This document shows positions 34,700-58,783 of a stretch of DNA of 64,000 nucleotides, piece by piece; the stretch's first letter is position 1; each line of letters opens with the position of its first letter. The translations under genes and the position numbers were made by a program. Location: positions 247,027,536 through 247,091,535 of the forward strand of contig NC_092877.1 of the NCBI RefSeq assembly GCF_028372415.1, written 5' to 3'. The stretch is from Notamacropus eugenii. Its lineage: Eukaryota; Chordata; Mammalia; Diprotodontia; Macropodidae. Under the pieces are notes generated by a model. It was not told the DNA's origin. It saw only the letters and a program-made list of their open reading frames with translations, and ran no database searches.

Positions 34700-35178
34700 C
34701 CCTCCCACAATGAGTCAATATATTTTATAAGGTGAACTACCATAGCTAGCAAGTGTATAACTGTAAAAGAGGTTTGAAAATTGGGGGAACTATTTATTAT
34801 ATCAATAATGAAAATTACATTCCTTTCAAGCTTCTACTTATTTTGGATAATGCCTCAGGTCATCCTCCTCATCTAGATGATTATAATGAATGTGAAAAAG
34901 TGGTTTACTTTTGTCCTAATACTACCTCATTATTACTTCCTATGGATCAGGATGTGATTACAAATTTCAAGGCATATTATTTACGCACTACATTTGTTCA
35001 GGCAATTATAGCTTTAGAGGCAGATAAGGACTTGATATTGAGAGATATATGTAAGTCTTATAACATTTACCATTCAATCTGGAAGAGTAATAAGGTATGA
35101 GAAGATGTAACAGAAATATTTATGAAGAAAGGTTGAAGGAGAAAAAAGTATTCCTGCAGTTCCTTCCTGATTTTCATG
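34700..35178 (+). pseudogene. Tigger/pogo-type transposase relic, 5' part
   Basis: The frame at 34753-35100 matches the DDE (pogo/Tigger, DDE_1) transposase core: FKLLLILDNASGHPPHLDD carries the second catalytic aspartate, followed by VVYFCPNTTSLLLPMDQDVI (the conserved PPNTTSLLQPMDQGVI box, third acidic residue) and TNFKAYYLRTTFVQAI. After a stop at 35098 the relic goes on as EDVTEIFMKKG up to the RNF7 insertion. The N-terminal DNA-binding half was not recognised upstream. This is a dead DNA transposon. Confidence 0.9.
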
Positions 35179-36641
35179 GAAAAAAAGGATGGAGGTGGCG
35201 GGCTCGGTAGCTAACGGTCGGCCGGCTCTTCCCTGCGGCCGCCTCTGGAGGGAGCTGCAGCCTCTCCCGAGGAGGCTTGGCCCCGCCGCCATAGCTCCCC
35301 GCCGCGCTCGCCCCAAGCCTTTCCCCCGCCAGCCGGCCAGGCCCGCCCGCGCCGCCATGGCCGACGTGGAGGACGGAGAGGAGCTTGGCGCGCCGGCCTC
35401 GCACTTGGGCAGCTCGGGCTCCAAGGCAGGCGACAAGATGTTCTACCTCAAGAAGTGGAACGTGGTGGCCATGTGGAGCTGGGACGTGGAGTGCGACACA
35501 TGCACCATCTGCCGGGTCCAGGTGATGGATGCCTGTCTTAGATGTCAAGCTGAAAACAAACAAGAAGATTGTGTTGTGGTCTGGGGAGAGTGTAACCATT
35601 CCTTCCATAATTGCTGCATGTCCCTGTGGGTGAAACAGAACAATCGCTGCCCTCTGTGCCAGCAGGACTGGGTGGTCGAGAGAATAGGCAAATGAAAGCC
35701 CAGGGCATCATTGAGTGCCATGGTCTGAGGCCCTGGGTATGGCACATAAGGGGTAAAGTCCTCCAAAGATGGCATCGCTTCACTTGTCTTGCCTTGGTAA
35801 AAGGAATGACTTGGACACTTGCTGAAGTTAGGTTGCGGCATTTGGTCCCCTTTCTTTTTAGAACTTCTTTACAAGTAAGAACAGTGTGTTAGAGATGACA
35901 TTCTTTTCTCTTTCTTTGGTGTGAATTGTAGATAACTGCTTCGAAATGCCATATTAGAGAAAACAGCTTCAATATGAATGACTTTCCTAGTCTCTCTAAA
36001 GTCTAGGATAAAGGAAATCAGGAGAGTAAATTCCATTCAGACAAGATAATTTTGCATGTTTATAGTTAATCATTAAAAGTTATTGACATCAATGAAAAAG
36101 CATTCAAATCTGATCCATGTAAGGTATGGTTTGGTACTAATAGTATTTTTTTCTCTGAAAATAACTAATTTATTCAGTGTTCATGTCACTATGTTAGGGT
36201 TTTGGCTTCCATTTTAAGTTTTTGTTAAAAACAAGATTAAAAATTTTATGACTAACTTAATAGTGACCAGGGCAACCAAAAATTGTATTTCTCTGTTTCA
36301 GAGAAATTGAGTCTTGGTCGTCTTATAAGGTTTTATCTTTTATTGTTTAGTGAAATCTATACCCAGAACTCTATAAAGCTCTATAAAATCATTGAGTTAT
36401 GGACGCATAAGTATTTCTAGATCACACTTTGATTTTTGCCATGTTATATTTCTTTAAAGGTGATTTATATTGAATACCTATAAGAAAAAGATGTTTGATT
36501 CACTTCTTAGACCTTTAATGAAAAAATTATAATCACATAACACTATTTGATAAAGATTAAAGATTCTATTAAATTGTTTAATTACTTGAACTGTGACATA
36601 ATAAATATTAATCTAATTTAAAAAAAAAGAAAAAAAGGATG
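35179..36641 (+). mobile_element. RNF7: RNF7 retrocopy with target-site duplication
   Basis: The inserted mRNA copy is flanked by a perfect 13-base duplication, gaaaaaaaggatg, at 35179-35191 and 36629-36641. It contains a GC-rich 5' untranslated leader (35192-35356), the complete coding region (35357-35695), a long 3' untranslated region with AATAAA at 36600-36605, and a short A run (36620-36628) before the second duplication. These are the marks of L1-mediated retroposition. It landed in the transposase region of a Tigger relic, whose sequence resumes at 36638. The short clean tail and intact frame suggest a fairly recent copy or one under constraint. Confidence 0.93.
35357..35695 (+). CDS. 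RNF7: RING-box protein 2 (RNF7/RBX2/SAG), intact retrocopy
   Basis: RNF7 is the small RING-H2 subunit of CUL5-type (and some other) cullin-RING ubiquitin ligases; it recruits the E2 enzyme and also has a redox-sensitive role. The frame encodes 112 residues (human: 113) without a stop or shift. It starts MADVEDGEELGAPASH in a strong Kozak context (gccgccATGg). The cullin-binding segment KKWNVVAMWSWDVECD is followed by the RING-H2 cross-brace ligands C46, C49/C52, C60/C63, C72, C79, H81, H84, C87, C98 and C101, and it ends DWVVERIGK. From memory of the human protein, it differs at a few places in the first 50 residues and once near the end (E108 for Q), plus a one-residue loss near residue 24. 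The RING is otherwise identical apart from A-to-T at 50. It has no introns, so it is a retrocopy and not the parental gene. Whether it is transcribed is unknown. An in-frame upstream ATG at 35189, contributed by the target site, would add 56 residues. Confidence 0.9.
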   Translation: MADVEDGEELGAPASHLGSSGSKAGDKMFYLKKWNVVAMWSWDVECDTCTICRVQVMDACLRCQAENKQEDCVVVWGECNHSFHNCCMSLWVKQNNRCPLCQQDWVVERIGK

Positions 36642-37200
36642 AAACTGATGAAGTGAGGAATAAGATTGTGAAATTAGTGCAAGAGTTAGCACAAGAAGTA
36701 GTGAATAAAATCAATTATAAAATTAGCACAACAATAGACAGAAGTAAATGAGAATGATATGCAGAAGTCCATTGAGTCTCATGGAGAACTGTGGAATGAG
36801 GATCTGATCAAACTGCTAGCTGCAAAGAATGAAGAAAGTGAAGCTCCAGAATTGCGACTGAGCCAAAAATGTTGAAAACAAAATAATTAACAGAAACATT
36901 CAATCATTTGAGTGATTCTTTTATCTTGTATTGAAAATATAGGTCCAAATATTTCAAGATTTAAAAGTTAAAAGATTACTTGAAGACAACATTGTTTGTT
37001 ACACAGTTCAAGGGGGTTCCCAGAGCCAATACCCCATCAATGGTACAATATTTAATATGTGTGCATTTTAGTATATTTTATAACTTGCATAAAGGTATTA
37101 TTTCGTGTATGCCTTTGTTATATAGATTAAGTGAAGAAGGTGGGTAAGGGAAAATTCCCGTTTAGCAAAAATTAGATAGATAGATGTCTAAGGAATGGTT
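36638..37200 (+). pseudogene. Tigger/pogo-type transposase relic, 3' part
   Basis: Directly after the RNF7 insertion the relic continues with DETDEVRNKIVKLVQELAQE, VVNKIN, and NDMQKSIESHGELWNEDLI then KLLAAKNEESEAPE, matching the acidic C-terminal region of Tigger transposases (the ELTNEDL box). Non-coding 3' sequence follows. The terminal inverted repeat was not identified with certainty, so the right limit is approximate. Confidence 0.8.
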
Positions 37201-55987: not shown

Positions 55988-58783
55988 GGGAGCCAAGATG
56001 GCAGAGTAGAAAGATGCACATACACATAGCTCTGAACCCACAGCCCATACAACAGCTACAGGGAAGTAACTCACGGCGAATTCTGCACCCAAAGGCCACG
56101 GAACATTGGAGTGAGGGAGATTTCTGTTCAGGAGAGACCTGCAAACCTCTCGCAAAAGGTCCTTCACGCTGCGGACTGTGCGCCGGAACTGGGAGCTGAG
56201 TACAGCCCTGCCGCGGCCACGGCACCGAGAAGAAAAGATCTGAGCAGGCTTCAGGGACAGGATCTCCAGCGGCCACTCAAGTCCCTCCACCCACAGATGA
56301 TGGGGGTCGGTGAGAGAGTCTCTTTGGCAGGTCGAGAGGGGAGTTGGATGCCTCCATAACTCAGCCCCCCCCCCCCCCCCGCCCTGGGAGGTAGAGGCTG
56401 GGAGGCGGCTGCAGACAGGAGCTCCCCAAGCGGGCGGGAGCCTAGATCCATTGTGGAAGGTCTGTACATAAACCCCCCGAGGGAACTGAGCCTGAGAGGT
56501 GGCCCTGCCCCTACCTCAGCAACTGAACTTAATCTCACACTGAATAGCAGCCCTGCCCCCGCCAAAAGCCCTAAGGCTGGAAGCAGCATTTGAATCTCAG
56601 ACCCCAAACACTAGCTGGGAGGATCAGGAGACAAGGTGGGTGTGAGGATAATATTCAGAGATCAAGTCACTGGCTGGGAAAATGCCCAGAAAAGGGAAAA
56701 GAAATAAGACTATAGAAGGTTACTTTCTTGGGGAACAGGCATTTCCTCCCTTCCTTTCTGATGAGGAAGAACAATGCTAACCATCAGGCAAAGACACAGA
56801 AATCAAGGCTTCTGTGTCCCAGCCCACCCAATGGGCTCAGGCCATGGAAGAGCTCAAAAAGAATTTTAAAAACCAAGTTAGAGAGGTGGAGGAAAAGCTG
56901 GGAAGAGAAATGAGAGACATGAAGTCAAAGCATGAACAGCAGATCAGCTCCCTGCTAAAGGAGACCCAAAAAAATGTTGAAGAAAATAACACCTTGAAAA
57001 CTAGCCTAGCTCAATTGGCAAAAGAGGTTCAAAAACCCAATGAGGAGAAGAATGCTTCAAAAGCAGAATTAGCCAAATACAAAAGGAGATTCAAAAGCTC
57101 ACTGAAGAAAATAGTTCTTTCAAAATTAGAATGGCACAGATGGAGGCTAAGGACTTTATGAGAAAATAAGAAATCACAGAACAAAGCTAGAAGAATGGAA
57201 AAATGGAAGATAATGTGAAATATCTCATTGGAAAAACAACTGACCTGGAAAATAGATCCAGGAGAGACAATTTAAAAATTATGGGACTACCTGAAAGCCA
57301 TGATCAAAAGAAGAGCCTAGACATCATCTTTCATGAAATTATCAAGGAAAGCTGCTCTGAGATTCTAGAACCTGAGGGAAAAATAAATATTCAAGGAATC
57401 CACAGAACACCGCCTGAAAGAGATCCAAAAAGAGAAACTCCTAGGAACATTGTGGCCAAATTCCAGAGTTCCCAGATCAAGGAGAAAATATTGCAAGCAG
57501 CTAGAAAGAAACAATTCAAGTATTGTGGAAATACAATTGGGATAACACAAAATCTAGCAGCCTCTACGTTAAGGGATCGAAGGGCATGCAATAGGATATT
57601 CCAGAAGTCAAAGGAACTAGGACTAAAACCAAGAATCACCTACCCAGCAAAACTGAGTATAATACTGCAGGGGAAAAATTGGTCTTTCAATGAAATAGAG
57701 GACTTTCAAGCATTCTTGATGAAAAGACCAGAGCTGAAAAGAAAATTTGACTTTCAAACACAAGAATGAAGAGAACCATAAAAAGGTGAACAGCAAAGAG
57801 AAGTCATAAGGGACTTACTAAAGTTGAACTGTTTACATTCCTACATGGAAAGACAATATTTGTAACTCTTGAAACATTTCAGTATCTGGGTACTGGGTGG
57901 GATTACACACACACACACATGCACACACACACACATACATAGAGACAGAGTGCACAGAGTGAATTGAAGAGGATGGGATTATATCTTAAATAAATGAAAT
58001 CAAGCAGTGAGAGAGAAAGATATAGGGAGGAGAAAGGGAGAAATGGAATGGGGCAAATTATCTCTCATAAAAGAGTCAAGCAAAAGACTCATTAGTGGAG
58101 GGATAAAGAGGGGAGGTGAGAGAAAAACATGAAGTCTACTCTTATCACATTCCACTAAAGGAAAGAATAAAATGCACACTCATTTTGGTATGAAAACCTA
58201 TCTTACAATACAAGAAAGTGGGGGATAAGGGGATAAGCACTGTGGGGGGGGGGGGATGATAGAATGGAGGGCATGGGGAGGAGAGTGCAATTTGAGGTCG
58301 ACACTCATGGGGAGGGATAGGATCAAAAGAGAATTGAAGTAATGGGGGACAGGATAGGATGGAGGGAAATATAGTTAGTCCTATACAACACAACTATTAT
58401 GGAAGTCATTTGCAAAACTACACAGATTTGGCCTATATTGAACTGCATGCCTTCCAAAGGGAAGGGGTGGAGAGGGAGGGAGGTAAAGAAGTTGGAACTC
58501 AAAGTGTTAGGATCAACTGTTGAATAATGTTCTTGCCACTAGGAAATAAGAAATACAGGTAAAGGAGTATAGAAAGCTATCTGGCCCTACAGGACAAAAG
58601 AGAAGACGGAGACAAGGGCAGAGAGGGATGATAGAAGAGAGAGCAGATTGGTCATAGGGGCAATTAGAATGCTTGGTGTTTGGGGGGGGGGAGGGGAGAA
58701 AAGGGGAGAAAATTTGTAACCCAAAATTTTGTGAAAATGAATGTTAAAAGTTAAATAAATAAATTTAATATAAAAAAAAGAAA
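55988..58783 (+). mobile_element. Full-length half-L1 (HAL1-type) element
   Basis: It starts gggagccaagatggcagagt, has a GC-rich 5' region (to 56681) and ORF1 (56682-57769), and passes directly to a 3' untranslated region containing a CA tract (57905-57935) and purine-rich spacer. It ends in aaatgaatgttaaaag, an A-rich tail and the 14-base target-site duplication. There is no ORF2, which is the definition of half-L1 elements; such elements must borrow the reverse transcriptase of an L1. It inserted near the 3' end of the composite retroposon. A run of 16 C bases at 56365-56380 and a 9-10 base G run near 58248 are mutational slippage or copying marks. Confidence 0.9.
56682..57769 (+). pseudogene. 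Half-L1 ORF1 (L1 ORF1p-like), lightly broken
   Basis: ORF1p is a trimeric RNA-binding chaperone. The ATG at 56682 gives MPRKGKRNKTIEGYFLGEQ, the same start as in the element at 63938. A coiled coil (EELKKNFKNQVREVEEKLG, KHEQQISSLLKETQKN, NTLKTSLAQLAKEVQK) follows. The RRM/C-terminal half is intact from 57203 and includes TTDLENRSRRDNLKIMGLPE, IIKESCSEILEPEGK, IQGIHRTPPERDPKRETPRN and YPAKLSIILQGK, ending FDFQTQE at 57769. A shift near 56785 and further shift/stop changes between 57110 and 57200 separate the parts, so no single product is made. Confidence 0.88.

Follow-up and report, generated by a model that had tools for sequence, protein, structure and literature searches.

RNF7 (RBX2/SAG) is the RING subunit of CUL5 ligases, and solved RBX2 chains, such as 9eg1 and 7oni, which we take to be human, are available for comparison. 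Processed retrocopies of the LINE-1 type are recognized by the loss of introns exactly at splice sites, by an A tail behind the poly(A) signal and by a target-site duplication, usually of approximately 7–20 bp. All of these hallmarks are present in the RNF7 copy described here, which lies within a window (the whole stretch of DNA analysed) of 64 kb at C23:247,027,536–247,091,535; its duplication measures 13 bp, and it differs from LINE-1-type retrocopies in nothing essential. Compared with the sibling RNF7 copies of the same genome, however, it is younger and more intact. Our reading, to which we assign a probability of about 0.92, is that it is a young processed RNF7 retrocopy, most likely neutral, made from a parent gene located approximately 83 Mb away. 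Literature searches for RNF7 as a retrogene or retrocopy, and for RBX2 RING mutants, found none, and a search for an RNF7 processed pseudogene returned a sole match which, by its title, concerned zebrafish and arsenic. Several thousand processed pseudogenes have been reported in mammalian genomes (PMC2657826) and, because they are so numerous, a single locus of this type matters little; what this one offers is a clean, dated case in which an intact frame is no evidence for a retrogene.

Structure of the retrocopy, its parent and its insertion site

The retrocopy occupies positions 35192–36628 of the window on the forward (+) strand and is flanked by perfect target-site duplications (GAAAAAAAGGATG; 35179–35191 and 36629–36641, both +), the 5' and 3' copies being identical at 13/13 bases. 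It begins with a 5' UTR (35192–35356, +) that aligns to parental exon 1, followed by an intact RNF7/RBX2-like frame of 112 codons plus stop (35357–35695, +), recognized as an open reading frame, by a Pfam match and by alignment to the parent, and by a 3' UTR (35696–36619, +) that shows four differences from the parent in 925 bases; A36620 may also be templated. The poly(A) signal AATAAA is found at 36600–36605 (+), and a remnant poly(A) tail of nine A residues, the first of which may be templated, at 36620–36628 (+). The start codon at 35357 lies in the context GCCGCCATGG. The 112-codon frame, its start, the poly(A) signal, the A tail and the perfect 13-base duplication named in the first-pass annotation are thus all confirmed, and its coordinates are exact.

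The GC-rich leader extends for 165 bases upstream of the ATG and opens with a base, G35192, that is not templated by the parent, which has T at this position, and that may derive from the mRNA cap; judged from the copy only, the 5' end of the retrocopy would correspond to the true transcription start of RNF7. The ATG that ends the 5' duplication (35189–35191) is in frame with RNF7 and opens a frame of 168 amino acids (35189–35695, +); the parent has TAG at the matching place, with no in-frame ATG between this TAG and the RNF7 start. Antisense frames of 107–177 codons overlie the retrocopy and are taken as composition effects, and Rfam and tRNA scans of the 64-kb window gave no match.

A protein search of the 3.445 Gb genome for RNF7-like loci, which scores best candidates only, gave 16 matches, two of which belong to the RNF7 parent gene, located on the same contig (C23) approximately 83 Mb from the retrocopy. 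The parent consists of three exons with GT-AG introns; the 48-base exon 2 falls outside the protein matches and was located by alignment, and exon 3 carries the 3' UTR. The retrocopy is continuous over both parental exon junctions, exactly at the splice sites, in agreement with its earlier description as intronless, and the parental alignment likewise supports the claim that the full 3' UTR was copied. At the 3' end the retrocopy reads AATTTA and then the A run, where the parent has AATTTATTTTGTG, with TTTTGTG at the place of the A tail. Against the spliced parental exons the retrocopy is 98.9 % identical, with 16 substitutions in 1428 aligned bases and one 3-base deletion, the odd first base being counted apart from the 16. 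These substitutions are distributed as 5/164 in the 5' UTR, 7/336 in the CDS and 4/925 in the 3' UTR, the last corresponding to 99.6 % identity.

The sequence immediately upstream (34750–35178, +) is a host relic with a DDE_1 domain (PF03184, E=8.1e-10, over 100 residues of the frame), presumably a Tigger/pogo-type DNA transposon, and a possible downstream part of the same relic lies at 36642–36840 (+). When the flanks were joined in silico as an empty site, a comparison confined to this sequence alone, one frame ran open across the joint until a stop. Stops interrupt the host-relic frames beside the DDE_1 stretch, and it is of this host relic that the earlier description of nearby relics as heavily broken holds true. 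Elsewhere, positions 57191–57766 (+) of the window hold an L1 ORF1-like frame in which the domains Transposase_22 and Tnp_22_dsRBD are recognized, a remnant of the class of elements that generate retrocopies.

Encoded protein, age and pattern of mutation

The retrocopy frame matches Pfam zf-rbx1 (PF12678) with E=1.5e-21, and its top solved relative is the RBX2 chain 9eg1_K (E=2.5e-68), to which 103 of 112 residues are identical. The figure for the parental RNF7 protein is 107/112, with every RING Cys/His retained; all Cys and His residues from residue 47 onward match those of the parent, which confirms that the RING zinc ligands are complete. In parental numbering the predicted protein changes are P10L, the loss of one Ala at 24–25, S31Y, A37V, A51T and Q109E, and the change at Thr49 is silent. 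A37V falls in the N-terminal strand, which in RBX2 pairs with the cullin, and A51T lies between two zinc ligands. Among the chains shown, Ala37 and Ala51 are invariant in the parent, in four solved RBX2 chains, in an apparent RBX1 exon of the same genome and in five solved RBX1-type chains.

The age of the insertion was estimated from the 3' UTR, with the older sibling copies as outgroups (two to four per site, unalignable or deleted stretches excluded, read by eye). The siblings side with the retrocopy at three of the four differing sites, which would be changes in the parental lineage or a variant of the sequenced parental allele; the fourth site, where two siblings match the parent and one matches the retrocopy, was scored as a retrocopy change. 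The resulting age is approximately 1 Myr (Poisson interval 0.3–2.5) at an assumed 2.2e-9 per site per year, with intervals of 0.6–5.5 Myr at 1e-9 and 0.15–1.4 Myr at 4e-9, dates that are subject to the parental 3' UTR perhaps evolving more slowly than neutral DNA. The rates are assumed values, since a literature search for a marsupial mutation rate gave nothing on a marsupial by title.

A Nei–Gojobori count in the CDS gave five non-synonymous and two synonymous differences (pN/pS 0.60). Codon 37, however, is GCT in the parent and GTG in the window retrocopy and in the sibling copies on C14 and at C23:244, a pattern best read as an ancestral GCG with repeated CpG loss, the parent having undergone a silent change later, although GTG may possibly have been passed on through a source allele common to the three copies. 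If codon 37 was ancestrally GCG, the count becomes 5:1 and pN/pS 1.19. Over this range (0.6–1.2) the ratio is indistinguishable from 1, and six or seven coding substitutions give the test hardly any power; weak selection on the retrocopy, whether purifying or positive, would be compatible with so few coding changes. The first-pass annotation had named near-identity to the parent, or a ratio near 1 together with a lack of unique transcripts, as evidence against function, and the parental alignment returned near-identity and these two ratios, as far as they can be computed and with little power.

In a neutral simulation of six substitutions the frame stayed intact in 66–75 % of runs, depending on the CpG rate, values that are somewhat overstated in that no indels were drawn and the starting frame was already without codon 24. 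The frame and all 12 Cys/His residues were retained together in 38–52 % of runs, and at least five amino-acid changes were seen in 40–57 %. With frames surviving this often, the fact that this one is intact does not speak for function.

Differences are concentrated at CpG sites: 5 of 89 parental CpG positions differ, as against 11 of 1339 others, a 7-fold excess (P=0.002). Two of the five CpG-type differences, both in the 5' UTR, have the retrocopy base in the sole alignable sibling and may be parental changes, and for a third there is no reliable sibling alignment. A similar ratio is found in the older C14 copy (10/36 CpG versus 47/1196 other positions, summed over CDS and 3' UTR). Within the first 337 bases the retrocopy retains 33 CpGs, compared with 39 in 340 in the parent, and this CpG-rich 5' region could give the retrocopy some promoter activity.

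Probable neutral insertion and its rivals

Intron loss, the A tail, the duplications and near-identity to the parent are observed directly, and from here we infer the enzyme and the age. LINE-1 machinery would have reverse-transcribed a spliced and polyadenylated RNF7 mRNA of the parent on the same contig and, approximately one million years ago, inserted the resulting copy into a DDE_1 transposon relic that was already old. Since then the copy would have behaved as a neutral processed pseudogene, gaining amino-acid-changing and CpG-type mutations which have so far been too few to break the reading frame; the frame is thus intact most likely because the copy is young. This neutral reading is based on pN/pS, on the simulation and on comparison with the older sibling copies, and a parent in the same genome, siblings that are both older and broken, and a simple simulation together account for the open frame. 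Of the two possibilities raised by the first-pass annotation, the very young insertion is borne out by the 99.6 % identity of the 3' UTR and by the perfect duplications, and the working retrogene is not. The latter, an RBX2-like subunit serving cullin-RING ligases, for example in testis, is what the intact frame, the full set of RING Cys/His residues, the strong start context and the long 5' UTR might suggest, yet we consider it improbable: pN/pS is not clearly below 1, A37V and A51T alter alanines common to RBX1 and RBX2 and so count against it, and an open frame is to be expected at such a young age. We found no sign of constraint and rejected a functional retrogene for this reason; a working retrogene is possible, without support, and the retrocopy is probably an ordinary processed copy. 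It is interesting to speculate, as a distinctly long shot, on a newborn gene for an RBX2 variant, transcribed from the carried-over CpG-rich 5' region or from a neighbouring promoter and yielding either RBX2 with A37V and A51T or the 168-residue form, whose first 56 residues would be new; the product might act as a modified or dominant-negative partner of CUL5. Transcription, if it proved to occur, would make the retrocopy a very recent duplicate of the gene for a ligase subunit, at a stage when its fate is still undecided.

The retrocopy branch is richer in coding than in 3' UTR changes (6/336 versus 1/925 on the retrocopy lineage, P=0.002; 7/336 versus 4/925 when unpolarised, P=0.01), as would be expected if a new RBX2 variant had recently come under positive selection. 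Of the six coding changes, however, two are G>A substitutions at CpGs of the parent, and the one at codon 37 most plausibly goes back to a CpG as well. Leaving out the CpG-type changes reduces the comparison to 3/336 versus 1/925 (P=0.06), with some excess still remaining, and a non-CpG coding-site excess was not significant in any of the four older copies tested. The 5' UTR is also more divergent, at 5/164 from the parent, although the sole alignable sibling carries the retrocopy base at three of these sites. With the excess partly due to CpG and the counts tiny, we rejected positive selection, which we regard as very unlikely. Least credible of all is an old retrocopy rejuvenated by gene conversion from the parent: the two do share a contig, but approximately 83 Mb separates them, near-identity spans the whole 3' UTR and the perfect duplications lie outside any parent-like tract. 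Distance and the uniformity of the identity led us to reject it.

Sibling copies in the genome

Further RNF7 copies were found at C14:422.57 Mb (94.6 % DNA identity over the best stretch), C23:194.87 Mb (89 %), C23:244.01 Mb (86 %) and C23:124.32 Mb (76 %), and one additional match of the protein search is a second piece of the copy at C23:194.87 Mb. Read by eye, the C14 copy has a 13-base duplication of its own and an open frame of 102 codons; the original start and two RING-region Cys residues having been lost, this frame was judged to be open by chance. From their translations we take the matches at C4:300.07, C4:412.22 and C2:326.02 to be an RBX1 exon, a broken RBX1-like copy and APC11, respectively.

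The genome contains at least six insertions of RNF7 retrocopies, the window copy included, and four of the six lie on the parent's contig, which makes up 11.3 % of the genome. The binomial chance of this is 0.002, or 0.01 without the window copy (3/5) and 0.013 with the C4 duplicates counted singly (4/9), values that derive from a best-candidate protein search and from a hypothesis formed after the data had been seen.

The C4 duplicates are four RNF7-derived fragments (L019, L040, L041 and L042) within approximately 100 kb (C4:220.25–220.35 Mb), each with at least one internal stop. They are 67–72 % identical to stretches within parental mRNA bases 148–384, spanning the joint of exons 1 and 2, and L019 shares 82–83 % identity with each of the others in the best stretch, flanks included; they probably represent one old retrocopied piece, multiplied by later segment duplication. 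In the copy at C23:194.87 Mb the 3' end, read by eye, extends beyond the poly(A) site of the window copy into parental downstream sequence, which points to an alternative poly(A) site.
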